A DNA stretch of 64,000 nucleotides. It comes from Leptolyngbya sp. FACHB-261 (lineage in GTDB: Bacteria; Cyanobacteriota; Cyanobacteriia; FACHB-261). Both the position numbers and the translations under genes were made by a program. The notes beneath the pieces were generated by a model. The model was given only the letters and a program-made list of their open reading frames with translations. It was not told where the DNA came from and ran no database searches. Positions 1-28,459 of this stretch are shown one piece after another (the stretch's first letter is position 1; each line of letters begins with the position of its first letter). The DNA lies in assembly GCF_014696065.1 (NCBI RefSeq), contig NZ_JACJPL010000022.1:1-64000 (forward strand), in the 5' to 3' direction.

Positions 1-2308
1 GTGGTTTGTGCTGAAGAATTGGATGCGACAGCGATTGGATGAGTTTGAGAACTTTCGAGATTGTGTGGATGCTGCGTTCAAGCAATGTCCTAACGTATGC
101 GCGTAGAGCTATATATCCTGGTTTCCTTAAAAAGCCGGGGAAAGCGCACCATTGGTCTTCTAACCAGTTAGATTTGACAGGGCTTGGAACGCTTGAGTCA
201 AAACGGCTAATCGCCTCAGCTAGGTCCTGTTGAGAAATATCAGTTCCAGAGAGTTGCTCAACTAGGCTTAGGCCTGTCTTAAGCTCTTGCTCCCCATAAG
301 GCTTATATTGGCTCCAGGGGTAAACGATAGCAGTGCAAACTCGGCCCGATGCAAGCCGTAACCCATGTTCATCCTCAATTACCTTTCGATTCAACCGCCC
401 CAAACGTTGAACTAGAGCAGGAGCAGGTGCTACAGGAGAAACTAATAGGTCGGCGCTGAGATCCAGGGACATCTCGCAAACTTGAGTTGTAATTGCTAGA
501 ACCGGAGTGTTTGAGCCGAAAGCTTTTATGACCGCTTTGTGTTTATCTAGCCTATCCTTGTAGCGATAGCGGCTATGATAGATTAAGCAATTTGAAGGCT
601 CCAACAAGGAGCTTAGGCACTTCGTTTTTGCTAGGCGATACAGGTTTATACAACTTTGTACTGAATTAGTTACCCACAAAACCTTTTGCCGTTTTTCTAA
701 TGCATCTAGTACGGTAGGCCATATCTCAGGTAGCTCATCAGAATCAGAAATCTCAGAAATGTATTGAATCTGGTAACGGGGTAGGATTTCTAGATCCTTT
801 GGTCCTTCGATAGAACTTATCTGCTCACCCAACTCACTTGCTACAGCATGAATTGCTTGGAGCTGTCCTTGAGTGAAACTAGCACTCATTAATAGAATCG
901 GAGCTCCTCGAAATGTTTTAAGGAATTGTAAAAGGGCTCCGAAGAGCCGGTCGTCATAGGCATGAACCTCATCAAATACAAAGGCAGATTGACTAATTGC
1001 AGGCCATGAATATAGAGGCTTACGATTGTTCTGAATGAGACCCAGCACTAAGTCAACTGTACAGACAATTAGCTTCGCTTGCCAGGCAGTTAATGCCGCT
1101 AACCGCGCATCTATCCCTTCGGAATCTTCTGAATCCCCTGAAAACAGAATTTCTTCCAAATCAACGGCAGCCCGGGAGTGCATCAAAGCTGTCTCAATAG
1201 GAGTTTCAGCAGCATAGTCTAGATATCCTTGGGAAGCAGTTCCAGTTGTGGGATATCCAAAAAACAACTTTCGACCCGTTGCTCTTTCCGTTGCTCTTTT
1301 TTTCGCCCATGCGTAAGCTGCAGATGTCTTACCAGTTCCACAGCCAGCCTTTACTAACGTGATCCTATTCTTTGCCTCAGCGACGTCTCTTTGAAAAGGG
1401 CGTAGGGAGTTACCGTTGAGTTTCTGTGTTAGAAGGTTTTGAATCTCTTGCTCAGAGAGTACAAGATTGAAAACCTGGTTCATCCACTCCCCAATCTTGT
1501 ATCCAGCAACAGGCAATGCTGAACCCGCCAGATCCGCAGCAATTACCGTTGCTTTAACTGCAGCAATAAATCTCTGACGTTGCCAATCGCTTTGAGCCTC
1601 AAGCTCAATAAACTCATCACGCAGCTCGGTCAGGGCTTGCTTCAGCGTAGACTTTGACCAACACTCTTGAGGATACTGGGAGAGCGACTCAGGTAGTCCA
1701 AAGACTTGCTGTCCCAGCCTAAGGATTGCCTGAAAATCCACATGCTGTGTGTAGATTTCAAGCTCATCACCAGTTCCGTCAAGAATTTCAGCAATGTCTC
1801 CTGTCGATTTACCATCTTGGCTTTGTCCAATTTTGAGATGATGCCCCATTGCTGCCCAGACAGCCACCATTAGATCAGCCTGAGGGCATTGTTCTAGCCA
1901 AGCTCTAGAGCTAGGAACTCGGAGCGCTAAGATGCCGCTAATGACCTCATGACGAAGCATCTGCCTGCTGCTGTGCTTCTTCCAAGCTCTCTGGAGCTTA
2001 TTCCTATGCAAGCAAATTTTCTCATCTTCAGAATTAAGATGAACCATCTCCTGAAAATGTTGATTTGCCTTACCCCAATCATGCAAATATGCGCCTAGCT
2101 TAACTGTGCGAGCGAAGTAATCAAAATCAATATCACTGGTTAGTCCTAACTGGTCCAAAATAGTGCGACCAAGCCTTTCTACTAAAACATCAGCAGCTTG
2201 CATCACTGCACTAATGTGACCTGTGTACTTGGCAGCACCTCGCATTCTGCTTCCTTGCGCAGCTTGTTTAGGTAGTGCCTTTGCTAGCAATGTCTTGAAG
2301 GGGGACAC
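1..2308 (-). CDS. cas3: CRISPR-associated HD nuclease-helicase Cas3 (C-terminus beyond left edge)
   Basis: Cas3 is the type I CRISPR effector nuclease-helicase that unwinds and degrades DNA after Cascade recognition. Reading the minus strand from a GTG at 2308 gives an uninterrupted frame to base 1 (about 769 residues visible). The N-terminal HD domain shows an early His (YTGH, H31), LHDWGK (H76, D77), a GHH and an RHE motif. The helicase follows, with Walker A AGCGTGKT (K327), a FGYPTTGT motif typical of cyanobacterial Cas3, a DEVH box (D446-H449), LLMSAS, and an ALVQRLGRLNR motif VI. The GTG start shares one base with the cas6 TAG stop, so the two are translationally coupled. The effector genes (cas8, cas7, cas5) are presumably to the left, outside the window. 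The reading frame is certain and the family assignment is strong; the exact subtype is less so. Confidence 0.93.
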   Translation of the reverse strand, partial: MSPFKTLLAKALPKQAAQGSRMRGAAKYTGHISAVMQAADVLVERLGRTILDQLGLTSDIDFDYFARTVKLGAYLHDWGKANQHFQEMVHLNSEDEKICLHRNKLQRAWKKHSSRQMLRHEVISGILALRVPSSRAWLEQCPQADLMVAVWAAMGHHLKIGQSQDGKSTGDIAEILDGTGDELEIYTQHVDFQAILRLGQQVFGLPESLSQYPQECWSKSTLKQALTELRDEFIELEAQSDWQRQRFIAAVKATVIAADLAGSALPVAGYKIGEWMNQVFNLVLSEQEIQNLLTQKLNGNSLRPFQRDVAEAKNRITLVKAGCGTGKTSAAYAWAKKRATERATGRKLFFGYPTTGTASQGYLDYAAETPIETALMHSRAAVDLEEILFSGDSEDSEGIDARLAALTAWQAKLIVCTVDLVLGLIQNNRKPLYSWPAISQSAFVFDEVHAYDDRLFGALLQFLKTFRGAPILLMSASFTQGQLQAIHAVASELGEQISSIEGPKDLEILPRYQIQYISEISDSDELPEIWPTVLDALEKRQKVLWVTNSVQSCINLYRLAKTKCLSSLLEPSNCLIYHSRYRYKDRLDKHKAVIKAFGSNTPVLAITTQVCEMSLDLSADLLVSPVAPAPALVQRLGRLNRKVIEDEHGLRLASGRVCTAIVYPWSQYKPYGEQELKTGLSLVEQLSGTDISQQDLAEAISRFDSSVPSPVKSNWLEDQWCAFPGFLRKPGYIALRAYVRTLLERSIHTISKVLKLIQSLSHPILQHKP

Positions 2309-2967
2309 TAGTGCTCCTGATGAGGTAGGAAAATTCCGCAGCCCATGTGTCGCTTGCCTCCACATCCAAATTGCTGCAGAAGCAGTGAGTGCTCATCACT
2401 CAAGCCAGTCACCTCAGTCGTAAAACCAACGACTGTGTAACGTTGAATCTTGATGACCTTACGACTAGGTTGTCCATCACGATTTAGAGGAACAGATAGA
2501 TGCCCTACGATTCCTAGGTTGTCCAACTGACGTTGAGCTGAAGCTATAAAGGAGCCTAGTTCCATAGCACCCTTGATAGTTACAATACGAGCTCTCACAG
2601 TTGGCGCTGGGCAGAGCATAGAGACAGTAGGGATTCCCAGCTGAATCTCGTGAACGCCTACTTTTACTTTCTTACCTGCCAATGGGTAGACTAACGGAAT
2701 TTTAGATATAGGAACCCTGATACGGGTCAGTGACTGCCGTGTCAGGTGAATTTTGCCTTGCTGATCTTTGATGCCTGGGACCGTGAGAATAGCGAGCTCG
2801 GGGTGCTGGCGAAGCTCTGGTATCAGGTGCACGAATGCTGCATAGAGCCCGTAGTTGTGATCTGCAGGTAGCACTTGTCCATTGATCACAGGAAAATCCA
2901 GTTCTACAAAGGGTTCAAACCCCCTGTTCTCTGCAGAAGGTGTTAAGGGTCTTGTAATAGAGTTCAT
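2308..2967 (-). CDS. cas6: CRISPR RNA endoribonuclease Cas6 (Cmx6/MYXAN-like)
   Basis: Cas6 cuts the CRISPR transcript within each repeat to release crRNAs. This 219-residue protein has the layout of the Cmx6 branch: an N-terminal ferredoxin-like part and a basic, glycine-rich C-terminal loop reading GCGGKRHMGCGIF just before the end, which is the RAMP G-loop. The length fits the MYXAN Cas6 group (about 200 residues). It is the first gene of the visible cas operon and overlaps cas3 by one base. No other cas gene or repeat-spacer array is visible on its upstream side, so the promoter should lie in the 2968-3908 gap. The subtype name is from recall of the family; Cas6 itself is well supported. 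Confidence 0.88.
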   Translation of the reverse strand: MNSITRPLTPSAENRGFEPFVELDFPVINGQVLPADHNYGLYAAFVHLIPELRQHPELAILTVPGIKDQQGKIHLTRQSLTRIRVPISKIPLVYPLAGKKVKVGVHEIQLGIPTVSMLCPAPTVRARIVTIKGAMELGSFIASAQRQLDNLGIVGHLSVPLNRDGQPSRKVIKIQRYTVVGFTTEVTGLSDEHSLLLQQFGCGGKRHMGCGIFLPHQEH

Positions 2968-3908
2968 CCCGTGGGGTTTCCTGGTGAGAGGGCGCTCTGG
3001 GACTTGCGAGCTATGTTTTCATCGCCTTTCGGCATCAAGGGTAATGAGCGGGCAAGGTTATTGATGAGCCTTGACGCTCTGCGCTTCTTGGCAACGCTCC
3101 ACTCGATTGGCTGCCACGTGGAAGTGCTCAACGCTCCACAGATACTCGTTTGAATGCCACTTAGAACATCTAAGGATGCACATAGGTTAGCTGCCCTGGT
3201 TTTGCTATGTCAAGGCCCTTCCTGCACTGGGCTATCTCTTAATTGGCATTTGGGCACACAGACGGGAAGATACCTTTGGAGGCAACCCCAGGCTTGTTAG
3301 CTCAAAATATTACTCAGCCCCATGCTCGCTGTCTGACTGCTGGAATCTCTGCTCTTAGCTGTCACCTCACTTCAAGTGACTGACGAACAACTGAACATGG
3401 TCGCTGCGAGCGAATGGGGCATCACTTCACTACACATCGCGCACTTTATGCGTCGAGTTCAACCTTTCTTGGAGCGCAATCAGTCATCCCTTAGGGCTGC
3501 TCCGCATCACTGGGCTAGTAGATATCCGCCGGGGGTCACTAAATCTATTACTCCACCAACAAGGTGCCCTAGCGTCATAGGGTTTCTATCTTCTTCAATC
3601 ACCTGCTAGGGGCAAAGACTCGTTCCCTAACCCTAGACCGCTTTGTGATTCAGGAGCTGATCTAACTCGATAGAGAAAACGGGTATCAAGGAAACAGGCA
3701 GTAGCTGCTTTGTAGACACCACCTTCTCCTCTGGGGGTTTTACCAGTGGACAACAGAGGGGGCGGTAAAAACAAACATCACATTGAGTGCAATGATTGCC
3801 CCTAGTAGGGAAAGGCGGAAGGGGCCACACACGGAAGAATAAGGCTCAAAAACTAATGGCGTAGCCTGTGGATGGAATGGCTGAGTTAGGTCGCAGTAGA
3901 GCACTTAT
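2968..3908. other. Intergenic, no convincing gene
   Basis: About 940 bases between the cas6 start and the disrupted lipoprotein gene. The open frames here (for example 3376-3609 on plus and 3633-3830 on minus) lack recognisable motifs and ribosome binding sites. The cas promoter must lie here, but I cannot place it. No CRISPR repeats are visible. Confidence 0.5.
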
Positions 3909-4697
3909 TTAATAGCTTATTGCTTGTCGCTCGGTTTCTTCGTTCGGGGTTAAATCAGATTGAGTCACAAATGTAACTCGATTAGGCTCAATCTCATAAC
4001 GTAAATCAAATGCCCCTATTCCACCAGAAGTCATGCCTTCTCGATAAATACTCATATCGTATTTACCGCTAACTTCTGTAGTTTCTACATAGAAAACAAA
4101 CTGATAGGGGAGCGGTAGCCCTGGAACGCTTTGTCTTAAGCTAAGCGCAGGCTTCTCAGGCAGAATTGAGCAATGGAACAAACCTTGTCCCCAACGGCAG
4201 CTCAGAGCTACATCAAAGTCTGAGTCTAAATAGTAGATGTCTGCGCGGACCTGCTTCGATAGCCCCTCTGAATCTTCTCTAAAGGCGCGAGGTAGATACC
4301 CATTGACCGCAATTCTGACGTCGCACATGGGACTTGGTTGACCACTCTACACACCGGATGGTACTTCACCGCAGTGGTCTTGGGGATACCCAGCCGCTCG
4401 ACGCACTGGCTGGTTGTATGTGTCCACATAGGTTGCCGTAATCGTAGCTCCAGTACCTTGGTAGGCAAAACACCAGATCTGTGTAGAGCGCCGAGCGCTC
4501 TCTAAATTATCAATCTCGAAAATCCCTGGGAATTTCTGCTCTCCGAACTGGTAGTAGCGGGCATACCAAACGAGGCGAAGTGACTGTTTATCACCCTGAA
4601 TTGGTGCAGACAGAGAGAGAGCAGACGTGCAAATTGGATAATTGCCGCAGGCAAGAAACACGAAGCATACTAATGCAATCGAAAGAGCTTTTCTCAT
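3909..4697 (-). pseudogene. Secreted/lipoprotein gene with an internal in-frame TAG
   Basis: One minus-strand frame runs from ATG 4697 to a stop at 3909 and is broken only by a TAG at 4349-4347. The 116-residue first part starts with a signal peptide ending in a lipobox-like LACG, so the product would be exported and possibly lipid-anchored. The second part resumes six codons after the TAG, in the same frame, for 139 residues (ATG 4328). Together they make a protein of about 262 residues rich in Tyr, Ser and Thr with scattered Cys. I recognise no family. The shared frame says this was one gene disabled by a nonsense change. Two separate small genes or amber readthrough are possible but less likely. 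Confidence 0.6.
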
Positions 4698-4909
4698 AGA
4701 GCTGGTAAGGCTAAGTCACTGAAATGGATGGAGGCAGGCTTTTGACCTGCATGACTGGTTCTGGTGGAACTGCGAGACCTTAATGAGAGCCGCTTCATGG
4801 AGACAGCCTGAAACGACGTCACCAAAACCAGGCGTCTGCTCTATTCCGTCACCTGTCCAGGCTTTAAAATGCTTGCTTTTGAGAACGGCAGTCAGACCAA
4901 ACCCAGTGC

Positions 4910-5164
4910 TTAAACTTGCCCTTGGTTTTGCTCTGCATAGCCCAGCACATACAGCTGCTCAATCTCCATGCGAATAGCTGCAACGGTATCGCCCACGATA
5001 AAGACGATTGCTCTGGCTCTCGTGCGCCTTGGTCGCTCTACAGGTGTCTCCTCCATCTGGGCCTGTTGCCCAACCACTGGAGTTTTTTTGCTTCTGTTTG
5101 GTCTGCGCCATGACAGCGGGGTGTTTAGGTTAACTAGCAATGTACCCGTAACATGAGGGTACAA
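4910..5164 (-). CDS. Small hypothetical protein, divergent from the RHH gene
   Basis: An 84-codon frame whose last 45 residues (RARAIVFIVGDTVAAIRMEI onward, ending in LYVLGYAEQNQGQV) look like a real small globular protein: a beta strand, then an amphipathic helix. The first part is unlike protein, and the first ATG falls in a palindrome, so the true start is probably internal (ATG 5056, or a GTG near 5077). It diverges from the ribbon-helix-helix gene at 5209, as plasmid or phage regulatory pairs do. The function is unknown. Confidence 0.4.
   Translation of the reverse strand: MYPHVTGTLLVNLNTPLSWRRPNRSKKTPVVGQQAQMEETPVERPRRTRARAIVFIVGDTVAAIRMEIEQLYVLGYAEQNQGQV
5141..5163. promoter_or_regulatory. 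Palindrome TGTACCC-N9-GGGTACA, probable operator
   Basis: A perfect 7-bp inverted repeat with a 9-base spacer lies in the gap between the divergent small genes, about 45-70 bases upstream of the RHH-type protein start at 5209. RHH proteins usually bind short palindromes and repress their own genes, so this is a likely autoregulatory operator. This is inferred from position and symmetry only. Confidence 0.4.
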
Positions 5165-5208
5165 GCAAGTAGCCTGCCGGTAGAAATTTATGATGGTCGG
5201 AGGACGCC

Positions 5209-5424
5209 GTGGGGAAAAGGCTTGTGGCCCGCAAGGACCGGCTATATCGGAGAGAGGTCAGTGTCTATCTGGAGCCGTGGCTAAAGCAGGGGCTGGTTCG
5301 TTGGGCCAAGCGCGAGAACCGTTCGCTCTCAAACCTGATTGAGGATCTGACGAAGAAGGCTTACCGAGAGTGGGCAGAGGCGAACAACATACCAATTGAG
5401 ACGCTGGACGAGGACGAGGAATGA
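5209..5424 (+). CDS. Small ribbon-helix-helix (CopG-like) protein
   Basis: A 71-residue basic protein starting at GTG 5209 behind a good ribosome binding site (GGAGG, 6 bases upstream). Residues 15-20 (REVSVYL) fit a DNA-binding beta strand. They are followed by two helices (LKQGLVRWAKREN and SLSNLIEDLTKKAYREW) with the N-S-N-L-I turn typical of the RHH fold, and an acidic tail ending DEDEE. Such proteins regulate copy number or partition genes on plasmids. Its place next to a palindrome and the replicon-like module at 6.2-8.9 kb supports a plasmid origin. The regulatory target is inferred. Confidence 0.65.
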   Translation: MGKRLVARKDRLYRREVSVYLEPWLKQGLVRWAKRENRSLSNLIEDLTKKAYREWAEANNIPIETLDEDEE

Positions 5425-6192
5425 CCAGCAACGGGTGTGAATAAACGATCACTGGGTCTGGAGGGCGAACTGATAGTGTTCAGACTCTGACCGTTCAAAT
5501 CTCCGAGTTTGGAAGCCAGATGTCTGAGTTAAGGGGGCAGGTTCAACCAGTGGTGGAACAGTTCAACTGAATGGTGCCTGCGCTCCCGTAGTGTCTAACC
5601 AAGTGGCGTTTCAGGAAGAATGCCTGAATCAGTTGCAGGATGAGTTTAGGTTCGATCTACGTGAGCGAGCAAAATGCTCAGGTACAGGCATTGCTTGAAC
5701 TCTGCTGTAGCCGCGAGTGCCGCTGCAGAGTTTAGAGCGGGGCCAGGGCTGATAGACCCTCCAGCGAGTAGAAAAAGTGAATGGGTAGCTAGATGGGAAC
5801 GGTTTCCAGCGACATGTTTGATTAGAGGGGCGGACTCGTCAGAGACTTGCAACCTAGCCAAGAGCTGAGCCTATGAGTTGATTGCTGAGCTGGGAATTAG
5901 CTGCTCTTCGCAACGCAGACCCCCCTGCCCTAGCTTCGAAACCAACACTCGACTGACATAAGTTTGACGAGCAATCGAATCGCTCCGCAGCCGCTCAAGC
6001 AACCTCCTCAGTTTTTCAACTGATGCAAGTAAGCGATGAGCAATATGCTTCTTGCACAACTGTATAGTGGAAAGTTTTAGCAAACGAGCCACTCCAGTTC
6101 CTCTTTCTGCTGGGACATAAATAAGTCTTCGGAGGGAAGACTACATGGGAAAAGGCCTCGACTTATCCGATGCAATCCAAATTTGTAACAGC
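5425..6192. other. Decayed intergenic DNA
   Basis: No intact gene. Two short stretches read like broken remains of a coding region: around 5488-5570 (SEFGSQMSELRGQVQPVVEQ) and around 5602-5695 (FQEECLNQLQDEFRF), both in plus-strand frames closed by stops. They look like coiled-coil fragments and suggest an eroded gene. Confidence 0.35.
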
Positions 6193-6323
6193 TTATTCCC
6201 GTTTATTTATGTTTTGAATCTCTTCAAAAAATATGAGTAAAAACTGAACACCTAGCAATTTATTTAATGGGGATTAATCATTTATTTAAACGGGATTATC
6301 TCTGTATAACCCCATTTAAATCG
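6193..6323. repeat. Iteron-like repeats in an AT-rich block (putative plasmid-type origin)
   Basis: Two direct repeats abut with a 22-base period: 6258-6279 and 6280-6300, both of the form ATTTATTTAA-(TG/AC)GGGATTA. An inverted copy follows at about 6303-6322 (CCCCATTTAAAT on plus) and a weaker inverted copy lies at 6193-6210 (CCCGTTTATTTATG on plus). A 22-base period (two helical turns) in AT-rich DNA just upstream of a DNA-binding protein gene and a replication-type gene is the layout of iteron plasmid origins. The repeats are seen directly; the origin function is inferred. Confidence 0.5.
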
Positions 6324-6882
6324 ACTATTTTTTCTCGCAAAAAGGGTTGAATATCTCAGCTCAGGGTGATAGTCTTTTGGAGTACAAACGTACCCAACCA
6401 AACCTCGCGCCATGTCCCTCAATTCTCTCTAAGCATGATCGAGACTGGAGATTGACCGATACTAGATGTGCTCCAGAACTGAAGCCTCCATACCTATTAG
6501 CTCAAGCAGGACCAGAGGTCAGTCTTACATCTCTAATGACCTACCAACTCTCCTCTCTTGAGGATAGAGAGCTGCAATAGGAGCTGTGTGTAGATTCATT
6601 TATCTCATTTGCTATCGGTTGATATCTCTAAATCTTTTCTGCCCAGAACCTAGGGAAGATAGGCAGGTGGGTGAGTAAGAGACGAGAGTTTTAGTCACTT
6701 AAAACTCACTCGTGCCATTGGCTTCATCAGCAGTCTCTTATTGATTGGGGATTTTAGAGCAGTTGCTATGGCCTCGCTTGGAAGAAGAGCTAGCACGTAA
6801 GACAGTGGTAAAGCTCCATCGGCATTTTTAGAAGCTGCAAGGAACCTTTTCTCTTGCAGAGTGCCCACCAGCAGAAAAATAT
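6324..6882. other. Intergenic, no convincing gene
   Basis: About 560 bases between the iteron-like block and the HTH gene. The only long frame (6347-6580) has no recognisable features. The region presumably holds the promoter for the HTH gene. Confidence 0.4.
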
Positions 6883-7161
6883 ATGAGCAACTTTTCGTTT
6901 CAATTTGGTACCAAGCAGCAAGCCGCTGAGATCTTGCAACTAAGTTGTGAAACCCTTAAGAAGTATAGACTTAGTGGCAGATTGATTGAGGGGATTCATT
7001 GGTCGAGAATCAATTCTCGATTGGTCAGATACAATTTGAGCTTACTTAAAGATTGGCTTGCAAACAAAAATGATCCAGTGGCACATCTACGTGCAATTGA
7101 GCAATTTCAAGCTAGCTTGCTGAGTAATCAGCCTAAGAAACCTCGTAGGAAGACTATATAG
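6883..7161 (+). CDS. Excisionase/AlpA-type helix-turn-helix protein
   Basis: A 92-residue basic protein. Residues 8-40 (FGTKQQAAEILQLSCETLKK and the following YRLSGRLIEG) match the winged HTH of MerR/excisionase-type small proteins, in which a TKQQAAEIL-like helix precedes the recognition helix. The tail is basic (PKKPRRK). It lies between the iteron-like repeats and the polymerase-like gene, so it may regulate replication or act in excision. The start ATG at 6883 is the first in frame after an upstream stop; the ribosome binding site is weak. The target is unknown. Confidence 0.65.
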   Translation: MSNFSFQFGTKQQAAEILQLSCETLKKYRLSGRLIEGIHWSRINSRLVRYNLSLLKDWLANKNDPVAHLRAIEQFQASLLSNQPKKPRRKTI

Positions 7162-7419
7162 GTATTGCGATGATAAGACCTGCAGCTTGTCCAATCATTG
7201 CCTAGTGAGAAGGTAAAATTTGAAAGCATTCTAGCTGGCTCACCAAGAGTGTAGTAGCTGATGGAGCAATGGTTATGTAAGGCATATAAGTATCAATGGC
7301 TTTAGGAGATAGGTTACTGAAGAGGGCTTGCTGAGTCTACTCGATAGGCTACAGCATGACTAGTTCACGCTAATTTCGGCCGTTCAGCGACTCACTTATA
7401 GAAGCTGGAGTAGTTCTTC

Positions 7420-8853
7420 ATGAGTTATATTATCAAGAAATACCGCTGTCCTAGGCAGTGTTATGAGTTTGTGCGAACTCTGACTAAAAGTTTAAGCCAA
7501 GAGAACCATGCTCTGTTCTGCCATATTCTAGTGAGTAGCATGAGCAATCTCCGTCTCCGCAAACACAAGGGCTGGGTACCTATTTCGTTCAAACTTATCC
7601 GTAAGACTTGGAAGGGTAAAGCGGACTGGAAGAAATTAGAGAGCCTAAACCTCATCAGAGTTAAACCCTATGATATGAGGCGCGGTCTGTCCTATGAATT
7701 CAAAGTACCTGATGCTCTAATTGAAAAATTTCTCTCTAGTTTTTCCACTAAGACTCAGGACCACGTAGACTCACCGATGGTAAACCTATTCACGGGTCAT
7801 TTAATGAAGTGCAAGCCTAAGAGTAGGTTAACAGACAGTACTGGACACCCTGAAGCAGAATTAATTGCATCTGCAATTAAAACAGTTAAGAAATGTTTTT
7901 TTAATGCACTGGCTGTTGAAAAGCATTTACAGAAATTAAAAGCCGAACGTGATTTATTTGAGAAAGATAGTCCTCAGTGGACGAGAGCGTGTGCTCGCTA
8001 TCTAAATGATTTTTATTGTTTTAGGGCTATTGTTTCACGCGACTTAGTCAGTATAGATGGCAAAATCTTTAGTTATGAACCGACTTATTCTAGTCAAACG
8101 ACTGGTCGTATCAGTGAAGAGGGGGGTGGATTGCAATCTTGTAGCCGTGCTATGAAGGAGGCTGCCTTTCAAGATATTAATGGCATCAGAAATTATGATC
8201 TCAAAAATAGTCAAGCCAATGGACTGATCCAGCAATTTGAGAGGGCTGGGTTAGATACTGTCTGGCTTAAGAATTACGTTGCGGATAGTAACTCTAAGAA
8301 AAAATATGCGGCCCAAGCTGGCATCACAGTGAACTGCTGGAAGAGTTGCCTGTACGCAACGATGATGGGGGCATATCTGGGGCCTGGTAGATACCGTGGT
8401 GCAGTCACTAAGTATCTAGAAGATGAGGCGGATGGTGATTTAGAAAAAGCTAAGGCCTTGCATATGATATGTCTAGCTGTAATTAAGCCTTTTAAGATTC
8501 AACTAGATAAGTGGCATCAGTGGCTGCGCGAAAAGTATGTCGAGCTTCATAGCTATTGTGTTAAAAGGAAAAAATATATAAAGAATGCTACCGGTAAAAC
8601 GCTCTGTCTCACGGACGTAGGCAAGGATAAGAATTTGCTTACGCGCAAAATATCTGCGTTTATATTACAAGGTGCTGAGGCGGCTTTCATTCATCACTTG
8701 ACTCTGTTAAGTGACGAGTATGGGTTTAAAGTTCTGAGCAATCAACACGATGGGTTGGTAACCTTAGGCACCATTCCAGAGGAAGCTGTTGAAATAGCGC
8801 GAGAAAAATCTGGACTCAAGCGAGCTGAAATCGAGGAGAAACCATTTCTATGA
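7420..8853 (+). CDS. Divergent family A DNA polymerase-like protein with winged-helix N-terminus (putative replicon protein)
   Basis: A 477-residue protein. Residues 30-110 look like a replication-type winged helix (GWVPISFKLI, then a Leu-rich helix and SYEFKVP). The C-terminal half aligns by eye with the pol I polymerase core in the right order: TGRIS...GLQS..R (T228 on; pol I TGRLS...NLQN..R), IRNYDLKNSQANGL (D260; pol I DYSQIELR, motif A), WKSCLYATMMGA (K308; O-helix K-x3-Y/F-x4-G), RKISAFILQGAEAAF (Q417; pol I N.PIQG.AAD) and NQHDGLV (H443, D444; pol I VHDEL, motif C). D260 and D444 would be the two metal-binding aspartates. There is no room for 5'-3' or 3'-5' exonuclease domains. It follows iteron-like repeats and an HTH gene and is closed by a terminator, which suggests the initiator/polymerase of a plasmid or phage satellite. 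Motifs are seen; function is inferred. Confidence 0.6.
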   Translation: MSYIIKKYRCPRQCYEFVRTLTKSLSQENHALFCHILVSSMSNLRLRKHKGWVPISFKLIRKTWKGKADWKKLESLNLIRVKPYDMRRGLSYEFKVPDALIEKFLSSFSTKTQDHVDSPMVNLFTGHLMKCKPKSRLTDSTGHPEAELIASAIKTVKKCFFNALAVEKHLQKLKAERDLFEKDSPQWTRACARYLNDFYCFRAIVSRDLVSIDGKIFSYEPTYSSQTTGRISEEGGGLQSCSRAMKEAAFQDINGIRNYDLKNSQANGLIQQFERAGLDTVWLKNYVADSNSKKKYAAQAGITVNCWKSCLYATMMGAYLGPGRYRGAVTKYLEDEADGDLEKAKALHMICLAVIKPFKIQLDKWHQWLREKYVELHSYCVKRKKYIKNATGKTLCLTDVGKDKNLLTRKISAFILQGAEAAFIHHLTLLSDEYGFKVLSNQHDGLVTLGTIPEEAVEIAREKSGLKRAEIEEKPFL

Positions 8854-8859
8854 CCTTTT

Positions 8860-8900
8860 AAAGGCTGAAACCCTTGCAGCTATGAAGATTCAGCCTTTTT
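8860..8900 (+). terminator. Intrinsic terminator after the polymerase-like gene
   Basis: A 10-bp perfect stem (AAAGGCTGAA at 8860-8869 with TTCAGCCTTT at 8889-8898) followed by further T residues, 7 bases after the stop codon of the polymerase-like gene. It fits a Rho-independent terminator on the plus strand. Confidence 0.75.
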
Positions 8901-9001
8901 GGATCCTCGACGACAGTCGGCGGATGGTGTGAGAGGGTGCGAGAGGAGAAAAGGGAAGAGAAGGGAAGAGGAAAAGGAAGAAGAGGGAAAAGGAAAAGGA
9001 A

Positions 9002-9242
9002 GAAGAGAAGGTATAGGCGTACGGCTTCAACTGCCAGAAGCCTTGTGAGGCAAGGTTTTGACCCTTATTCCTGCCTTCTCCTAAGAACCTACTGGAAAGA
9101 GTAGGGAGGAAGAAGGGAGAGTAGGGAGGAAGAAGGGAGTGTAGGGAGGAAGAGAAGGTATAGGCGTACGACTTCAACTGCCAGAAGTCTTGACTCACAA
9201 GGTTTTGACCCTTATTCCTGCCTTCTCCTAAGAACCTATTGG
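9002..9242. repeat. 94-bp duplication flanking a 20-bp purine-rich tandem repeat
   Basis: Bases 9002-9095 and 9149-9242 are near-identical direct copies offset by exactly 147 bases, with a few substitutions and no length change. Between them lies a 20-base unit beginning GTAGGGAGGAAGAAGGGAG, repeated about 2.6 times (9101-9120, 9121-9140, 9141-9152). A related purine tract (GGAAGAG/GGAAAA) precedes the first copy from about 8940. No coding potential is visible. The rest of the 8901-9659 gap holds nothing I can name. Confidence 0.8.
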
Positions 9243-9659
9243 TATCGGCCCAAGACTTTCTTCTGCCAAGGCAATATAAGTATCCTTAGAGCCATCTGAG
9301 CCCCTTCGAACGAAGTCTTCCTTTGCCCTCTTAACCCCACTCCTTTACTGAAGCATTTGCTTAAACTCTGCCTTGGCTCCCCTTTCCTCAGGAATCAATG
9401 GCTAGTTGAAATGCTTGTGGTAACAATCTGTAAGTCACAGGGTAGTGCCTGACTGGTGAATAGGGTTCTGCCCCTCACTAGGAGTAAGAAGCTCTCCTTG
9501 TCCCTTGAGAGCTAGTAGAGGGCTGTTTTTGCAATACATCTGTCTCATCCGCAAGGGGCCAGCGTTAGTTTTTCAGAGGAAAGGGTACATTGCTGACATA
9601 GCACCTGCTAGGCGCTGTCGGTAACCGACGGTGATTGAATAGCGTTGGATATAGTATCA

Positions 9660-9884
9660 ATGACCGAGTTTCGAGATACGAACGAACTAGTTTTGGAACT
9701 CCGGCAACAGCTTGGATTAACTCAGGAAAAGCTTGCTGCTAAGTTAGGAGTTACCGTCAGCACTATCAATCGTTGGGAGAATGGAAAAACGGCTCCCTCC
9801 CCTTTAGGGTTAAAGCAAATTGAAGAGATGCTCAGACAGATGGGCGAAGGAGGAAGAAGCTTACTGGCAAAGCACTTTCCCTGA
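9660..9884 (+). CDS. XRE-family helix-turn-helix regulator
   Basis: A 74-residue DNA-binding protein from ATG 9660 (a TTG 15 bases upstream in frame is an alternative). Residues 9-65 are a canonical Cro/CI-type HTH: LRQQLGLTQEKLAAKLGVTV, then STINRWENGK, with helix 2 and recognition helix 3 clearly visible. It sits about 260 bases upstream of the tubulin-like gene on the same strand and probably controls that cassette. Single-domain XRE regulators are common in mobile and defence modules. The family is certain; the target is inferred from position. Confidence 0.85.
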   Translation: MTEFRDTNELVLELRQQLGLTQEKLAAKLGVTVSTINRWENGKTAPSPLGLKQIEEMLRQMGEGGRSLLAKHFP

Positions 9885-10145
9885 GGAAGTAATTGATTAG
9901 CTCAGTTAGCAGATTAACCTCCTCATAGATCAGCTTCATTGTATGTACTACCTATCTTACCTTCATAGGTGGCTTATTAAAGCTACACCATCTTTACTGA
10001 CTAGAAGCTGTGAGTAATTCAAGCAGAGCAGTATTAGAGGGAGCTAAACTCTCAGCGCAATCCGAAGTAATACCTGGTAAAGATAAGAATATTTGACTCC
10101 TGTAGATGACCTTTTCCATCCGTCCACCAATTCACTGTAGAAATA

Positions 10146-13100
10146 ATGTCTGAATATACTGGAATGACTCCCACTGTTATCATCGGTGTAGGAGGCACAG
10201 GCAAGGAAATTCTGGTTAAGGTGCGTCGGATGATTGTAGAGCTGTATGGCTCTTTAGACGCTCTACCCATTGTCTCCTTTCTTCATATTGATACTGAGCA
10301 GAACGCTAAGGTCTCAGAACCTCAAGTTGTTCTGAAGCAAGACATCTCTCTACGCCCAGCTGAGCAAGTATGGGCTAAGGTTGAAGACGCAAAAGCTATT
10401 CTAAACAAGCTCTCATCCTACGAATATCTAACAGAATGGTTTCCTAGTCAGCTGAAGGGAACTGATTCAATTTTGGCAGGGGCAGGGCAGATTCGGGCAT
10501 TAGGCAGGTTTGCTTTTAGTCTAAATTATCAAGCAATCAAAACCAGTTTTAACAATGCCAAAGCTCGGATTGTTGGTCATGAGAAGTTTATGTTGGATCA
10601 TTGGCAGGTCCAACTAGATAAGGGGATCAACATCTTTGTCGTCTGCTCTCTTTCGGGAGGGACGGGCTCTGGTATGGTCCTAGACCTAGCTTATAATCTC
10701 CGTGATTGGGTGCCACCTTCAGAATTGCCCCAATCCTCTGCTTATCTGGTTTTGCCAGGAGCTTTCTCTGGTCTGGGGGACAGAGTGATCGCGAATGCCT
10801 ATGCGGCTCTGATGGAGCTAAATCACTACTCCCGCAATAACACCCGCTTTGAGAGCCAGTACAGTAGCAATCAATCGGACCGAATCAGTGCCCAAAGTGG
10901 TCAGGACGTTCCCTTTAACTTCTGCTACCTAGTGGGTAACAGCAATGACAAGGTGACATTTCCGAATCTCAGCTCCGTCTTGGAGATGGTTGCTCAAAAT
11001 CTCTTCCTGGATTTCAGTTCTGGGTTCAGCCAGTACAAGAAACTGGTCCGGGATAATGTACGCAAACAGTGGGCTAGTCCCGATGCGCTCGGTTATCCCC
11101 AAAGTTTCATTAGCTTTGGTCTGTCTAGTATCCAATTCCCTGTAGAACGGGTGCTCAACGCTTGTGCTTCTCGCTTAGCCGGTCGTTTGGTAACTTGGTG
11201 GGCCAATCCCACCCCAGCCCCCGCTGCAATGCGGGACGTCATTAAAACCGAAATCTTGCCGAGCCTGTTCCTGGCTGAATCAGATCACGAGCATCAACTC
11301 CTGGACAGTATCAGTCTTGGAGACAACATGAAGCCTTACAGCAAGGAGGTAGCAGACTGGGCTGCAGGCGTGCGTAAGCGACGAAATGACCTGAATATTC
11401 CTTTTGAGAACATCCAGCGCTTTATCTCCAACGAGCAGGAGAAGTATGCTCCTCACTTCAATGACAGCGATACAGACCCCCGACGCTGGAGCGACTACTT
11501 CCAGAAGATGTGGGACAACCTAAACAGGCTGATTCCTCAGAAGCGTCAAGAACTCCGTCAGACGGTCTACAAGATCATTGAGGATCGTTTCCGGGGTCCT
11601 AAGTTTGCTCGGCAATTTCTAGAAGTTCTCCTAGAGGTCTTTGCTGAGTTCCGCAGCCGCTTTGACCAGGACCGTCAGAAGAACTGGTTGCCCAGGGAGC
11701 GCTCCTCCGCCAATGCGCTTCAAGTCCTGCTCAAGCAAATTGATGATCATGCCAAGCAATTCCTGCTGGTGAACCGTAAGAATGTCATTGAGGATGACTT
11801 CCGGGGGATTATGCAGGCCCTTGAATCTCTCTTTGTATCTAAGGTCGAGGTTAAAGCTCGAAGCTTGGCAATTCCTCTTCTGGATGGTTTACGAGAAGAA
11901 ATCGATAAGCTCTTAATTGACCTGGCAGCCTTTGAGCGGGTCCTGGATATCCTGCGGTCTCAGTTACAAGATAAAGAACAGATCTTTGTGCGGGAGACCG
12001 GCGTTCTAACGGTCAATGGCATTCTGCTTTATGATCCCAAGGACATTGAGCAGGTCTATAGCAAAACTCTGAATGGCAAAGAAGATACAGTTTGTCAGAG
12101 TATTTCCCAACAAGTTTTAGGTGATTTAGGACTGAGACTGTTTGACCTTTACACGTTTGATACGCTTCGCACCAAGGGATTGTACGAGCGTTTGCTGAAC
12201 CAAGCTATCGATGAGTTTCGTACCGGAACGCAACTCGAAATCTCGACCGCTCGTAAATTTCTGGAGCAATATCCAACGGTAGAGCAACAGGAAGCTCAGA
12301 TTAAAACCACCTTTGAAAAATGTGAGCCCTTTCTGCGTCTGAGCCAGGAGCAAAAGCGGTTGGGATGGGAGGACCGGTCTGAGAAGTGCCAGACGATTGT
12401 AGGGATTCAAGGCGGCAACAAGCCAACAGATCCTGCCGTCGGGGCTTTGCTACCCATGATTCGCAAGACCAGTACCCTCACCGACAAGGATATTCGTCCC
12501 CTGAATGATCCCCACCATATCTACTTTGTGCAGGAGATTGGTGCTTTTCCTCTACGCCTCATTGAGGGAATGGAGCGCATGCGTACGATCTATCGAGCGG
12601 TGACTCACGCAGATAAAAATCCCCTTCACACTCACCAAGACAGCCGTCAGTTTAAAGACCTGATGCCCCCGACGCAGAGCGAGGTTCAAGTCAGGCAGAA
12701 CCTGGTTCTTGCACGAGCTTTAGGTTTAATGACTCAAGTAGAAAACCGGGTGAGCGGATTTTCTGAGGTACGCTTTGCCTATCGAGATAAGCAATCAGGA
12801 CTTGAGAAACTCCAAGTTGTTGGAGCTGATTGGCAAGAGGCAGAAGAGTATTTGCTGGTTGACCAGAATCGTAAGGTTCGAGAAACTCTGGACGATATTG
12901 TCAATATCATTGGGCAAACAGCGGTCACCAAGCCTGACAAGCAAGAACTCTATCAAAAACTGATGGCTCATCTGCATGTATCTGAGGCATCTATTAGTGG
13001 TGGAAAAGACAGCCCTGACTATCAGAAACTCGAAGCAGCGATTGAGGACTATGTAAAAGTTCACAGCCTATTTATCGCTCCCGCCTTAGGAACCGCTACA

Positions 13101-13508
13101 TTGTCTTCTCCAAAGTCTCCTGCTGCACTTAAGACTCCATCAAGCGCATCTGCACCGTCAGGAATGCTAGAAAGCAACTTGGAGAAGTTTACCAAATTGG
13201 TGGAAACTTGTTACCGTCGCGGCAATCCCTCTCCTACGGAATTGCAGCTACTAGAGCGTTTCCGACAGAAGTACAACATCTCTCAGGAAGTTGCAGACCA
13301 GATCACTGCTCAGGTTCAGCCGAAGCATGATCATCAGCAAGCGATAGATGAGTTTGGTTTGATGTTTCGAGCCTTTCTCGAAAACGACGGTGACATAGAT
13401 TTTGAAGAGCAGGCTCAACTGATTGAACTGCAAGAAGAATTGGAATTGACCAATGAACAAGTTGCAGCAATAGAGTCGAATGTCCGAGACGAATTAGGCC
13501 ACAAATAA
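10146..13508 (+). CDS. Giant tubulin-like protein (Tubulin_2 family)
   Basis: A 1120-residue cytoplasmic protein with an N-terminal tubulin/FtsZ-type GTPase-like domain. Residues 11-21 hold a glycine loop (VIIGVGGTGKE) and residues 170-176 the tubulin signature SGGTGSG after a hydrophobic strand (IFVVCSL). Both are typical of the Tubulin_2 group of bacterial proteins, which are much longer than FtsZ. The middle is long and helical (about 380-1000). The C-terminus (about 1010-1120) holds two EF-hand/TerB-like helical segments (GNPSPTELQLLERFRQKYNI and NDGDIDFEEQAQLIELQEEL). It is followed after 26 bases by a membrane-anchored periplasmic-binding protein, so the pair is probably an operon. Polymerisation and cargo are unknown. 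The family call is good; the function is open. Confidence 0.8.
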   Translation: MSEYTGMTPTVIIGVGGTGKEILVKVRRMIVELYGSLDALPIVSFLHIDTEQNAKVSEPQVVLKQDISLRPAEQVWAKVEDAKAILNKLSSYEYLTEWFPSQLKGTDSILAGAGQIRALGRFAFSLNYQAIKTSFNNAKARIVGHEKFMLDHWQVQLDKGINIFVVCSLSGGTGSGMVLDLAYNLRDWVPPSELPQSSAYLVLPGAFSGLGDRVIANAYAALMELNHYSRNNTRFESQYSSNQSDRISAQSGQDVPFNFCYLVGNSNDKVTFPNLSSVLEMVAQNLFLDFSSGFSQYKKLVRDNVRKQWASPDALGYPQSFISFGLSSIQFPVERVLNACASRLAGRLVTWWANPTPAPAAMRDVIKTEILPSLFLAESDHEHQLLDSISLGDNMKPYSKEVADWAAGVRKRRNDLNIPFENIQRFISNEQEKYAPHFNDSDTDPRRWSDYFQKMWDNLNRLIPQKRQELRQTVYKIIEDRFRGPKFARQFLEVLLEVFAEFRSRFDQDRQKNWLPRERSSANALQVLLKQIDDHAKQFLLVNRKNVIEDDFRGIMQALESLFVSKVEVKARSLAIPLLDGLREEIDKLLIDLAAFERVLDILRSQLQDKEQIFVRETGVLTVNGILLYDPKDIEQVYSKTLNGKEDTVCQSISQQVLGDLGLRLFDLYTFDTLRTKGLYERLLNQAIDEFRTGTQLEISTARKFLEQYPTVEQQEAQIKTTFEKCEPFLRLSQEQKRLGWEDRSEKCQTIVGIQGGNKPTDPAVGALLPMIRKTSTLTDKDIRPLNDPHHIYFVQEIGAFPLRLIEGMERMRTIYRAVTHADKNPLHTHQDSRQFKDLMPPTQSEVQVRQNLVLARALGLMTQVENRVSGFSEVRFAYRDKQSGLEKLQVVGADWQEAEEYLLVDQNRKVRETLDDIVNIIGQTAVTKPDKQELYQKLMAHLHVSEASISGGKDSPDYQKLEAAIEDYVKVHSLFIAPALGTATLSSPKSPAALKTPSSASAPSGMLESNLEKFTKLVETCYRRGNPSPTELQLLERFRQKYNISQEVADQITAQVQPKHDHQQAIDEFGLMFRAFLENDGDIDFEEQAQLIELQEELELTNEQVAAIESNVRDELGHK

Positions 13509-13534
13509 TAATCTTTAGGCTCTATGAGGTTCCT

Positions 13535-15115
13535 ATGGTCAGTCAATTTAACTATGTGACTTGCCCTAAGTGCGGTCATGATCGTAATCCCGTAACTGCT
13601 AAGAAATGTGAGATCTGCGCCTTCAAGCTGGGCAAAAGCTTCGGTCTCTTGCCTATGATCGGTGGTGGCTTGGCTCTTTTAACACTACTGGGAGTAGGTT
13701 ACTTTGCTTTAAAAGGCCAACCAGGTAGTGTCGCCAGTGCGGCAGGGGGTAGTTCATCTGAACCCTCCAGCTCCCAAGGTTTTACTGATCGCATATTTGC
13801 ATTTTCGTTGCCCGGTATCTCATTGCCTGGTAATGCTGCACAGTCCAATGACGTCAGTGCATTCCTCAGCCGAGGTGAACGAGTTCTATTTACAGACACG
13901 CCAGTTCCCAGCAAACAAGCTGCCGCAACAGCCTTCGCGGCTGGCGACTTCCCAACTGCGGTGAGAGAGTTGGAGGCATCTCGACAAGCTAGTCGCAGTG
14001 ATCCTGAATCGCTTATCTACCTGAACAATGCCCGCCTTGGCAACACACCGGCTCTGAGCGTTGCAGTGGTTGTTCCTATTGGTAGCAATGCCAATGCTGC
14101 TCGTGAGATTCTACGTGGGGTTGCTCAAGCCCAGGATGAGGCCAATCGGGCTGGTGTTCCACTAAAGGTCGTCATTGGCGATGATAACAACGATCCCAAG
14201 CGAGCCCAAGACATTGCAAATACCCTAGCAAAAGACAGCAGTATCCTAGCTGTTATTGGTCATGGCACTAGTAAAACTTCGCTGGCTGCAGCACCGGTCT
14301 ATCAGCAAAACCAAATGGTGATGGTTGCTCCTACCAGTACCAGTACCGAGTTAGTACAAGTTCCTAAGAGTGCTGGAGGAGATAACTATATTTTCCGCAC
14401 CATTTCCAGTGACCAGTTCACAGGCACAGCTCTAGCCCGCTACATGCTGAAGACACTGGGTAAACGGAAAGCTGCTGTCTTCTTCAATTCGGGTAGCTCT
14501 TACAGCAAGTCACTTGAGCAAGCGTTTGAAACAACCCTGAGCCTCGAAGGAGGGCAGGTCGTGCAACAAGTAGATCTTGCAAAAGGGAATGCTGCAAGCC
14601 AGATATCTGGTGGCGCAGCAGAAGTCTTAGTGCTTCTGCCAGACTCAGATACGCTAGCTCAGGCGATTGAGGTTGCTAAAGCGAATCAAAATCGTCTGCC
14701 ACTCCTAGCAGGGGATGCAGTCTACAAGATAGATAGCCTCCAACAGGGAGGGGCTGCACTTAACGGAATGGTACTTCCGGTCCCTTGGCATCCCCTGAAG
14801 AACGCCGACCCGAACTTCAGCCAAACTGCTAGCAGCTTATGGGGAGGAGACATCAACTGGCGCACAGCTATGGGCTATGACGCCGTACGAGCCCTACGTG
14901 TGGGGCGGGCTAAAGGCAAGATTACAGTGCAGAATGGCCGACAAGGCCGTGCCGCCCTAGCTAAAGCATTTGCTGCTCCAGGTTTTGCGTCCAATGGTGC
15001 AACAGGGGTAATTAGTTTTCTACCCTCTGGTGACCGTAACAGCAATGTAATCCTGGTAAAGGTACAACCTGGGACTCGCTCTGGAACTGGCTACGATTTT
15101 GTACCATTGCAGTGA
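13535..15115 (+). CDS. Zinc-ribbon/TM protein with type 1 periplasmic-binding (LivJ-like) domain
   Basis: A 526-residue protein starting at ATG 13535. The cytoplasmic N-terminus carries a four-cysteine zinc ribbon (C10, C13, C25, C28). A single membrane segment follows at about 38-57 (LLPMIGGGLALLTLLGVGYF), then a Ser/Gly-rich linker. From about residue 165 to the end there is a branched-chain-amino-acid-type receptor fold (LSVAVVVPIGSNANAAREIL; VIGHGTSKTS; MVMVAPTSTSTEL; VAVF-like strands; LLAGDAVY). It would span the membrane, with a ligand sensor outside and a zinc ribbon inside. It has no ABC permease partners nearby and is paired with the tubulin-like gene, so it is more likely a sensor than a transporter subunit. 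The domains are clear; the ligand is unknown. Confidence 0.8.
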   Translation: MVSQFNYVTCPKCGHDRNPVTAKKCEICAFKLGKSFGLLPMIGGGLALLTLLGVGYFALKGQPGSVASAAGGSSSEPSSSQGFTDRIFAFSLPGISLPGNAAQSNDVSAFLSRGERVLFTDTPVPSKQAAATAFAAGDFPTAVRELEASRQASRSDPESLIYLNNARLGNTPALSVAVVVPIGSNANAAREILRGVAQAQDEANRAGVPLKVVIGDDNNDPKRAQDIANTLAKDSSILAVIGHGTSKTSLAAAPVYQQNQMVMVAPTSTSTELVQVPKSAGGDNYIFRTISSDQFTGTALARYMLKTLGKRKAAVFFNSGSSYSKSLEQAFETTLSLEGGQVVQQVDLAKGNAASQISGGAAEVLVLLPDSDTLAQAIEVAKANQNRLPLLAGDAVYKIDSLQQGGAALNGMVLPVPWHPLKNADPNFSQTASSLWGGDINWRTAMGYDAVRALRVGRAKGKITVQNGRQGRAALAKAFAAPGFASNGATGVISFLPSGDRNSNVILVKVQPGTRSGTGYDFVPLQ

Positions 15116-21295: not shown

Positions 21296-22294
21296 TAGAT
21301 TCCTCCTAATTTAGGCAGCAGATCACGACTCACGATAGCTGCACATAAGTTTTAGGTTTCCCATATCTCCCTGTTTGCTAACTGAATCTAGAAGGCAATC
21401 GCACTCCTGTACCAGCAGACAAAATAGCTTGAGCAAACCTGTATACCCGCAAGCAGCCTGGATAAACTTGAACATCTTGCAGACATCCCCGCACGATTCC
21501 CCACCGCGCTATGAGGTAAACCGTTTAGCTTGCCTGCAACCTAGGGTCTGCACGACCGCAGGGTATTTTCACTCATGCCACTGAGAGTGGGTGTAACAAT
21601 TCAACCTATGCTTACTTCTCCTGCCCAACGTGATTGGAGCTACTCACGCTAGGCTGGGACATCGAGTTGTGGTGCAGTCCAATCGCCATAAGTCAGTGAT
21701 GATGGGTGTCAGTGTGAACTCGAACACTGACACCCATCTGCCCAGCAGCTAAGGAAATATCTAGCCCGTATTCCAGTGTTCGCATTGTCCAAGCATGCAG
21801 GTAATAGGACGTGAGGATTAGATTAGTTAGGGCACTCCCCACGAGCAAGGGGGATACCGAGGAGCTGTTCAGACCACCTGCAGGTTTCTCAACCCCGCAA
21901 CGGAGGAAGAAGCGGATGGTTAAACCCCCGCTAATCTCAATATTTTCCGGGTGCAACCTTTACGATTTTGGGGCTAGGAGGGGAAGCATGGATATAGAGT
22001 CCAACTTTGCTTCTGCTTGCCCAAGAGGCTAAGTGATATCAATGAGGCTCACGGAGGTCGATCCACTGGAAACTGACAAGTTTCTCTGAAAGCTACGACA
22101 ACGACTAACTAATACAAACTCAGAAGATGCTCAATCAGATTGGTCTATGGGCTGAGAATCTACTGAAATGGTATTTTCCTAAGAAAAACAGAAGCTTGTG
22201 GTAAGAGAATTATTCGAAGAATTCCGCTAATCAACTGAAGCGTTGGACGAATTTTTCAAAAATTGCCCGACAAGAGCAATTTTGACTGTCTAGA
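21296..22294. other. 1-kb intergenic gap with one perfect hairpin
   Basis: No convincing gene in about 1000 bases; the open frames (for example 21811-22032 plus) have no motifs or ribosome binding sites. A perfect 15-bp hairpin lies at 21701-21738 and is listed separately. Confidence 0.5.
21701..21738. other. Perfect 15-bp hairpin, 8-base loop
   Basis: Arms GATGGGTGTCAGTGT (21701-21715) and its exact reverse complement (21724-21738) around GAACTCGA. No T run follows on either strand. It is one of several unrelated perfect-stem hairpins in the gaps of this island. Confidence 0.85.
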
Positions 22295-23596
22295 GTGAAG
22301 AGATTGACACCAAAGGTGAAGAAAGCAGTTATGGAAGCAGTCGCAGCCACATTTGCTATCCCCGACTGGATTGCTGCAGGTTTGAGTAATGGAGTTTACG
22401 AACGAGCTGGGGGTGTTATTCGGGAGGCAGGAAGCAAGCAAGTCATTGCTTGGTTAAAAGAAGTTGCTTTACCTAACCTCTCATCATCTACAATCCCGTC
22501 AATTGATCCAGTTACCGGAGCACTCAATCTAGCTATTTCAAGCGCGAACCTAGGGGTTTCAGTTAAAGGATTTTCAGAGGTCAAACAACAGTTAGGAGTG
22601 GTTCAGCAGAACTTACAACAAGTTCAGGGGAGTTTACAGATTACTTCGGCTTCCAGTCTTCTGAATCTGGGCTTCTCAGTGATAGGTTTTGCTGTGGTGA
22701 TGCACCGCCTTAAGGGTCTTGAGAAACGTTTACAGAAAGCTCAAGAAGTCTTGAATAAAGTCAATTACAAAATTGATCTCAGCTTCTACGCCAATTTCCG
22801 TGCTGCTCTTGACTTAGCAACAAATGCCTTCTCAATGAGCCAACCGGCAGCTTCTAAAAGCATGGCAGTTCAGGCTATCAACCGTTTCTTAGAGGCTGAA
22901 CATATTTATGTTGATTATGCAGACAAGGAACTCGAACGAGCAAGTCAGATTGCGGATGAGTACCTTCTAACTCTAGCTTTAGCTTATATTTCTGAAGCAC
23001 GTTGCTACCTAGAGTTAGAAGAGACTGATGCAGCTCTTCGTCGTCTTCAGGATGGATCGAACGTTCTTCGTCCTCGCATTCGGAAGTATGTCAAACTTCT
23101 ACTCACTTCCAACCCGGCAATCTATTTACATCCTCGATTCAAGGACAAAGTTGATTTGGCTCGGCTTACTAAGGTCTTTCAATGGCTTGAGCCTAACTTG
23201 GATGAAAAGGCTGTGTTCGAGCTTCAGCGAGAGAACTTATTCAAGCTGGCTCTAGAGCAAGATAAATGGATAGAAACGTTGCCAGCAGCTATCTTAGACC
23301 GTGCTGAGGTGAAGGAAGGTTGGTTCGGCCCTGATCTAGATGACCTGAGACGAAAGGCTGTTAGACAACTTCCTAAGGCAATGGAAGTGATGGAATCAAT
23401 GATCGAGACCAATGATCGTTTTGAGGCTTACCAGGAGGAAGTCAAAGCGATCAAAGAGTTGGGGATAAGCTTCCACGATTGGATGAAATTGGCTCCAGAT
23501 CAAGAGGCGCAGCCAGAGGGCACAAATTTGATGTACATCATTCCAGCTAGCTCAAACGATAGAAGTACCAGCATCGGGAGTTTAGATTCTAACTAA
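22295..23596 (+). CDS. Unknown helical protein preceding the type I R-M operon
   Basis: A 433-residue protein, start GTG 22295 (ATG 22331 is an alternative; neither has a clear ribosome binding site). It is almost all helical, with a glycine/hydrophobic stretch around 120-150 (SSLLNLGFSVIGFAVVMHRL) that could insert in a membrane, next to heptad-like coiled segments (KQQLGVVQQNLQQVQGSLQI and LKGLEKRLQKAQEVLNKV). The C-terminal half resembles TPR-like helical hairpins. It ends 58 bases before the hsdR start on the same strand, so it may be co-transcribed. A helical protein with one central hydrophobic hairpin recalls pore-forming effectors, but I do not recognise the family and do not assign a function. 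Confidence 0.7.
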   Translation: MKRLTPKVKKAVMEAVAATFAIPDWIAAGLSNGVYERAGGVIREAGSKQVIAWLKEVALPNLSSSTIPSIDPVTGALNLAISSANLGVSVKGFSEVKQQLGVVQQNLQQVQGSLQITSASSLLNLGFSVIGFAVVMHRLKGLEKRLQKAQEVLNKVNYKIDLSFYANFRAALDLATNAFSMSQPAASKSMAVQAINRFLEAEHIYVDYADKELERASQIADEYLLTLALAYISEARCYLELEETDAALRRLQDGSNVLRPRIRKYVKLLLTSNPAIYLHPRFKDKVDLARLTKVFQWLEPNLDEKAVFELQRENLFKLALEQDKWIETLPAAILDRAEVKEGWFGPDLDDLRRKAVRQLPKAMEVMESMIETNDRFEAYQEEVKAIKELGISFHDWMKLAPDQEAQPEGTNLMYIIPASSNDRSTSIGSLDSN

Positions 23597-23654
23597 GGGC
23601 CTGTGGTCATCGAAGTTGAGATTGAAAACTGGGCCAAGTGAGCAAAGGATAGTA

Positions 23655-27005: not shown

Positions 27006-27020
27006 CCGACAAAACACCTT

Positions 27021-28442: not shown

Positions 28443-28459
28443 GGGGATAGGTTGAGCCC

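Follow-up and report, generated by a model that had tools for sequence, protein, structure and literature searches.

The plus-strand gene at 7420-8853 encodes a 477-aa protein that is, by its modelled fold, a genuine superfamily A polymerase. It joins a thumb-palm-fingers core with conserved catalytic residues to an N-terminal winged helix, and its relatives occur in mobile-element contexts. We consider it probable that the gene encodes a TV-Pol-like primase/polymerase of an integrated, and probably decayed, mobile element. The TV-Pol family comprises minimal superfamily A polymerases that are found on mobile elements and were predicted to prime as well as to polymerise (Iyer, Abhiman and Aravind 2008, PMC2579912). 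The features considered are given by their positions in the window, the 64,000-nt stretch of Leptolyngbya sp. FACHB-261 DNA that was analysed, with the evidence for each in brackets.

6194-6320, no strand assigned: cluster of repeated sites with the core TTTAAAYGGGRTTA, possible operators or iterons (repeat and site scans)
6883-7161, plus strand: small HTH gene, 92 aa, HTH_17/excisionase-like (intact ORF; Pfam)
7420-8853, plus strand: TV-Pol-like superfamily A polymerase, 477 aa (ORF, alignment, AlphaFold2 model, structure matches)
7441-7800, plus strand: N-terminal winged helix, residues 8-127 (N-domain modelled alone, structure matches)
7810-8850, plus strand: thumb-palm-fingers polymerase domain, residues 131-477 (VIA-align)
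8107-8109, plus strand: R230 of the TGR motif (alignment)
8197-8199, plus strand: D260, the motif A catalytic Asp (alignment)
8341-8343, plus strand: K308, motif B, in the fingers (alignment)
8746-8751, plus strand: H443-D444, motif C (alignment)
8860-8898, plus strand: terminator-like hairpin with a T run (folding)

The 477-codon frame is intact in the ORF list of the window, as is the 92-aa HTH frame, in agreement with the original prediction. Library searches gave the 477-aa protein no above-cut-off match in Pfam or NCBIfam, and the PHROGs that it matched (best E about 1e-8) are all without a known function. A Pfam GCN5L1 match over residues 134-192, below cut-off with E 0.011, was rejected because the model forms the thumb there. 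The genome encodes the host's own Pol I at another place, so the identity of 7420-8853 as a displaced polA was also rejected. No second copy of the gene was found in the same genome. A short second DNA_pol_A fragment was observed at G000:C34:15319-15519 of that genome (114-aa open frame, E 1e-6). The window is part of a 278-kb contig, and the gene most likely now sits in the chromosome or a large replicon.

The AlphaFold2 model of the full-length protein, for which the input alignment consisted of 13 relatives from public contigs, was confident (mean pLDDT 90.4, pTM 0.87). When it was compared with the PDB by Foldseek, 50 of 50 among the matches listed were family A DNA polymerases, with a best E of 7e-8. 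Residues 131-477 aligned to Pol theta with Z 20.6 (3.4 A over 311 residues), to T7 DNA polymerase with Z 18.9 and to Klenow with Z 18.7 in VIA-align. The family A core that had been predicted was therefore borne out by a polymerase-type model and by family A matches. The model includes a two-helix thumb (helices 163-183 and 189-205) in a region that aligns to Pol theta and Klenow. D260 lies at the end of the strand at 256-261 and D444 within the hairpin at 437-449 of the modelled secondary structure, an arrangement as in Pol I. The relationship was fainter by sequence: PDB searches by protein and by profile matched no polymerase, and a profile of the cyanobacterial members had no significant hhalign match to Pol I, T7 DNAP or T7 RNAP. 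With the phage and Polaromonas members as the profile, Pol I/T7 DNAP was reached at E 4e-6.

The pol I motifs listed in the original prediction were all present and in order: QTTGR(230)...LQ(239), YD(260)LKNSQ, K(308)-x3-Y-x4-G with G317 as the motif B glycine, LQGAEA (417-422) with Q417-G418, and QH(443)D(444)G. Among 28 aligned rows R230, Q239, D260, K308, E420, H443 and D444 were invariant or nearly so; R230 was present in 27 of these rows, the exception (L023) looking like an alignment shift. D260, K308 and H443-D444 were invariant in 15 diverse rows, and the catalytic residues were kept among relatives down to 20% identity. This conservation, together with the model, suggests that the protein would be catalytically active. 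TGR(230) precedes Q239 by nine residues, and R668 and Q677 of Pol I have the same spacing. Five residues beyond the motif A Asp, at a position that we take to be that of the steric-gate Glu710 of Pol I, 24 rows have Gln, 3 have His and 1 has Val; with these in place of Glu, sugar selectivity cannot be assumed. The protein shares the polymerase domain fold and motifs A, B and C with DNA polymerase I and T7 DNA polymerase, but differs from them in its low identity (about 13%), in its HDG rather than HDE, in the Gln at the steric-gate position and in the absence of a 3'-5' exonuclease domain. The polymerase domain begins at about residue 131 and only the winged helix (about 125 aa) precedes it, in line with the predicted lack of an exonuclease domain.

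The HDG motif and the Gln or His in place of the steric-gate Glu are also what might be expected of a single-subunit RNA polymerase, T7-like in function, that transcribes the element, and such a role was raised for the remotely related divPolA2 by its authors (PMC11348598). We regard this explanation as very unlikely: the structural matches listed comprised DNA polymerases and no RNAPs, the TGR-x9-LQ spacing is that of DNA polymerases, and the comparison with T7 RNAP was not significant.

Single-sequence scans of genome contigs and viral contigs returned no relatives; these were recovered by an alignment-based search instead, and about 25 distinct polymerase relatives were collected. The family is sporadic, being found in 5 of 390 genomes of the class and 6 of 386 of the phylum, and in 4 of 389 genomes of the class of a Desulfobacula MAG (the query genome is counted in each figure). 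The cyanobacterial members, which belong to prophages and plasmids, lie on Picosynechococcus, Nostoc and other contigs, on Calothrix plasmid6 and on a Synechocystis plasmid, where the frame is broken in two. Others belong to Vampirovibrio, Desulfobacula, SAR324, two Polaromonas plasmids, IMG/VR contigs and jumbo phages. Three relatives (L008:7475-9092, L036:7956-9301 and L038:7974-9470) have a frame broken in two and are decaying or misassembled copies. In the tree, the window protein and a Nostoc MAG protein formed a pair (support 95/97); the phage members did not group as one clade. Genes for terminase, portal, major head and tail proteins lie near the relatives, as do those for tyrosine integrases, serine recombinases and KilAC antirepressors.

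These terminase, portal, integrase, serine recombinase and KilAC contexts are those described for TV-Pol and support the TV-Pol-like reading. Published TV-Pol genes neighbour resolvase, integrase, transposase and KilA-C genes, and the published set includes a protein of cyanophage Ma-LMM01 (PMC2579912). When the whole Ma-LMM01 genome was searched, the profile matched gp030 only, which adjoins two transposases, while an ordinary PolA lies apart from it at 157-158 kb. As the sole profile match in a genome that has its ordinary PolA elsewhere, gp030 is probably the published TV-Pol, although we reach this identity by inference. The family and TV-Pol have in common a minimal superfamily A core without a nuclease, the conserved Arg, the two Asp and the fingers Lys, as well as a phage or mobile-element context with recombinase, integrase and KilA-C neighbours among the relatives.

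Several features set the family apart from TV-Pol. The RxxxK motif is an 80% consensus in the fingers of TV-Pol (PMC2579912), whereas in the family the Lys was found in 28 of 28 rows and the Arg in 1 of 28. This reduction of RxxxK to its Lys counts against the TV-Pol reading, and for this reason we term the family TV-Pol-like and not a proven member. The N-terminal domain of TV-Pol was predicted to be all-helical (PMC2579912), in apparent contrast to the winged helix of the family, and the main branch described here is cyanobacterial and was not reported in 2008. No D5 helicase partner was visible at the family loci checked, and the surroundings of the polymerase in the window held neither a D5-like helicase nor a recombinase/KilA-C neighbourhood. 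More broadly, no helicase was recognised beside the gene in the window or at the relatives' loci checked, unlike D5-linked TV-Pols and CcPol, and this counts against a TV-Pol-like primase.

CcPol of SCC elements, a polymerase classed as a TV-Pol, carries out DNA priming jointly with its partner MP (PMC7581432, PMC10061031). By analogy this supports the reading of the 477-aa protein as a possible primase, and the CcPol-MP and PolA-SSB primases resemble it in having an A-family core on an integrative element, in a primase's place (PMC7581432, PMC10061031). CcPol retains the steric-gate Glu and a portion of the exonuclease domain, and it acts together with an OB-fold partner and a helicase, whereas the 477-aa protein has a winged helix, and neither an OB-fold partner nor a helicase was recognised for it. 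A second comparison is with divPolA2 of barbaviruses and ICP1-like phages, a divergent extra PolA beside a regular polymerase (PMC11348598). The family resembles it in GGR...QNLP, in the motif A/C pattern and in a weak profile link (E 2e-4). However, divPolA2 was described as lacking a thumb homologous to those of other polymerases (PMC11348598), and the thumb of the 477-aa protein aligns to Pol theta and Klenow. Neither divPolA1 nor divPolA2 gave a direct profile match, and both were rejected as the identity of the family.

All four of the phage records with a relative that were checked also carry an ordinary PolA, so the role of the family member there is not bulk replication. An additional polymerase in genomes equipped with PolA would suit a primer-dependent accessory DNA polymerase that serves mobile elements in repair or translesion synthesis and has no part in initiation, and repair was suggested for divPolA2 by its authors (PMC11348598). 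Such an enzyme is less expected in phage early/antirepressor or recombinase contexts and on small plasmids, and the characterised CcPol primes; we find a repair role rather unlikely.

Modelled separately, residues 1-134 formed a winged helix (pLDDT 86.7), as the original prediction had held. The best matches were ORC2 winged helices (Z 6.3), and plasmid initiators followed with Z 5.2-5.7 (4pql Z 5.7, RepA of pPS10 Z 5.6). TFIIE, RPC62 and MarR-type regulators scored similarly to the initiators, at Z about 5-6. Since all Z were below 8, these matches indicate the fold class of the modelled domain and not its function. The 477-aa protein shares the N-terminal winged-helix class with plasmid initiators (RepA of pPS10, RepE, pSK41-type RepA), and both have site repeats nearby; it differs in that the similarity holds at the fold-class level only and in having a polymerase core in place of a second Rep domain.

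The site repeats themselves are real. Two direct 19-nt copies lie 22 bp apart at 6258 and 6280, and the core TTTAAAYGGGRTTA starts at 6263 (+), 6285 (+) and 6307 (-), in exactly 22-bp phase with the third copy in the opposite orientation; a weaker fourth TTTAAAYGGGRTTA site lies at 6194 (-). Four sites in 250 bp compare with 0.3 expected, and 0 of 500 simulations reached 4, an enrichment that is somewhat optimistic because the consensus was drawn from these very sites. A self-contained mini-replicon, in which the winged helix would bind the 22-bp-spaced sites as iterons and open an origin at which the fused core would start synthesis, could draw on this phased cluster in AT-rich DNA and on the resemblance of the winged helix, among others, to initiators. 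The complete 13.7-kb Calothrix plasmid, which has a relative, also fits, as none of the 10 other proteins checked on it matched a Pfam Rep family. Yet the sites lie 1.1 kb from the polymerase gene, and no TTTAAAYGGGRTTA-type sites were found near relatives' genes, whether upstream of six of them or across the full length of two plasmids. The two Polaromonas plasmids with a relative carry a separate RepA_C, and in pW9NP1 iteron-like repeats lie beside repA; the phages have their own PolA, and the winged helix matches non-initiators about equally well. On this comparative evidence the replicon and initiator claims of the original prediction are unlikely, and we give the mini-replicon little credence. 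Its fuller form, in which one protein with an origin-binding winged helix and a primer-independent family A polymerase would serve small cyanobacterial elements as initiator, primase and polymerase, their origin being at 6194-6320, is likewise improbable.

The small HTH gene appears to derive from another cyanobacterial module, which further weakens the mini-replicon. Its 92-aa product matched HTH_17 with a Pfam E of 1.6e-4, below that model's cut-off. Kin of this protein were found in 124 of the 380 class genomes, frequently several in a single genome, but no homologue was found beside relatives of the polymerase, and the window repeats were absent beside kin of the HTH gene bar one weak match. 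Elsewhere in cyanobacteria the kin stand between a tyrosine integrase with an S24-type repressor and an 801-aa protein, a gene order known from one group of closely related elements. The 801-aa protein has a CPICG zinc-ribbon-like motif, a DUF3987 domain (E 7e-51) and, by inspection, a TOPRIM-like motif, for which Pfam Toprim_2 gave only E 0.008; we read it as primase-helicase-like from these motifs. Related integrated elements at L096:2628-7737 and L100:4220-9355 comprise a tyrosine integrase, a divergent S24 repressor, a small HTH gene and the 801-aa protein, a satellite-like layout seen in several genomes of one cyanobacterial genus.

Because kin of the HTH gene adjoin the TOPRIM-DUF3987 gene elsewhere, the polymerase would stand in the place of a primase; we infer such a displacement from gene order, with that one group of closely related elements as its base. 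No convincing integrase, repressor or TOPRIM-DUF3987 remnants were found in the window, the sole integrase-like match being 46 aa at 28976 (E 0.009). As the integrase, the repressor and the 801-aa protein are absent from the window, the locus looks like a remnant.

The predicted terminator after the gene was recovered as the hairpin at 8860-8898 (10-bp stem, dG -16.6, z -3.2), which the consensus scan had missed because of its loop limit. No coding gene adjoins the polymerase downstream in the window, and no RNA families were found in 2900-10200. Just past the terminator, a 98-nt direct repeat (91% identical; 8998-9095 and 9145-9242) lies in purine-rich GGAAGA-type tandem repeats. A ribbon-helix-helix gene (5209-5424) and an XRE-type HTH gene (9645-9884) flank the region. 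Farther out are CRISPR-Cas genes at the window edge (2-2967, minus strand), with a Cas3-type helicase/nuclease and Cas6; a 1120-aa Tubulin_2-domain protein and, after it, one of 526 aa that has a periplasmic-binding-protein domain (10146-15115); and a helicase-HNH protein with a type I restriction system (HsdR, HsdM-like, HsdS-like) at 18728-31243, a possible defence island.

The explanation that we favour, a TV-Pol-like enzyme of a mobile element, would work as follows. The 477-aa protein would serve the replication of an integrative mobile element, most likely by acting as its primase or primase-polymerase. Its winged helix may hold the template or a partner, and the thumb-palm-fingers core would make or extend a primer using two metals on D260 and D444, with helicase and bulk synthesis supplied by host or helper enzymes. 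The element in the window would probably be a remnant in which the HTH gene, the polymerase and the terminator are left and the integrase, repressor and helicase are gone.

The family adds a branch, spanning cyanobacteria, Vampirovibrio, plasmids, and temperate and jumbo phages and absent from Pfam and NCBIfam, to a poorly studied A-family class of which CcPol is the only assayed member in the literature cited. Because its members are small, intact and confidently folding, the priming predicted for TV-Pol in 2008 becomes open to test with one compact protein, and the altered steric-gate residue makes the choice between dNTPs and rNTPs a directly testable question.
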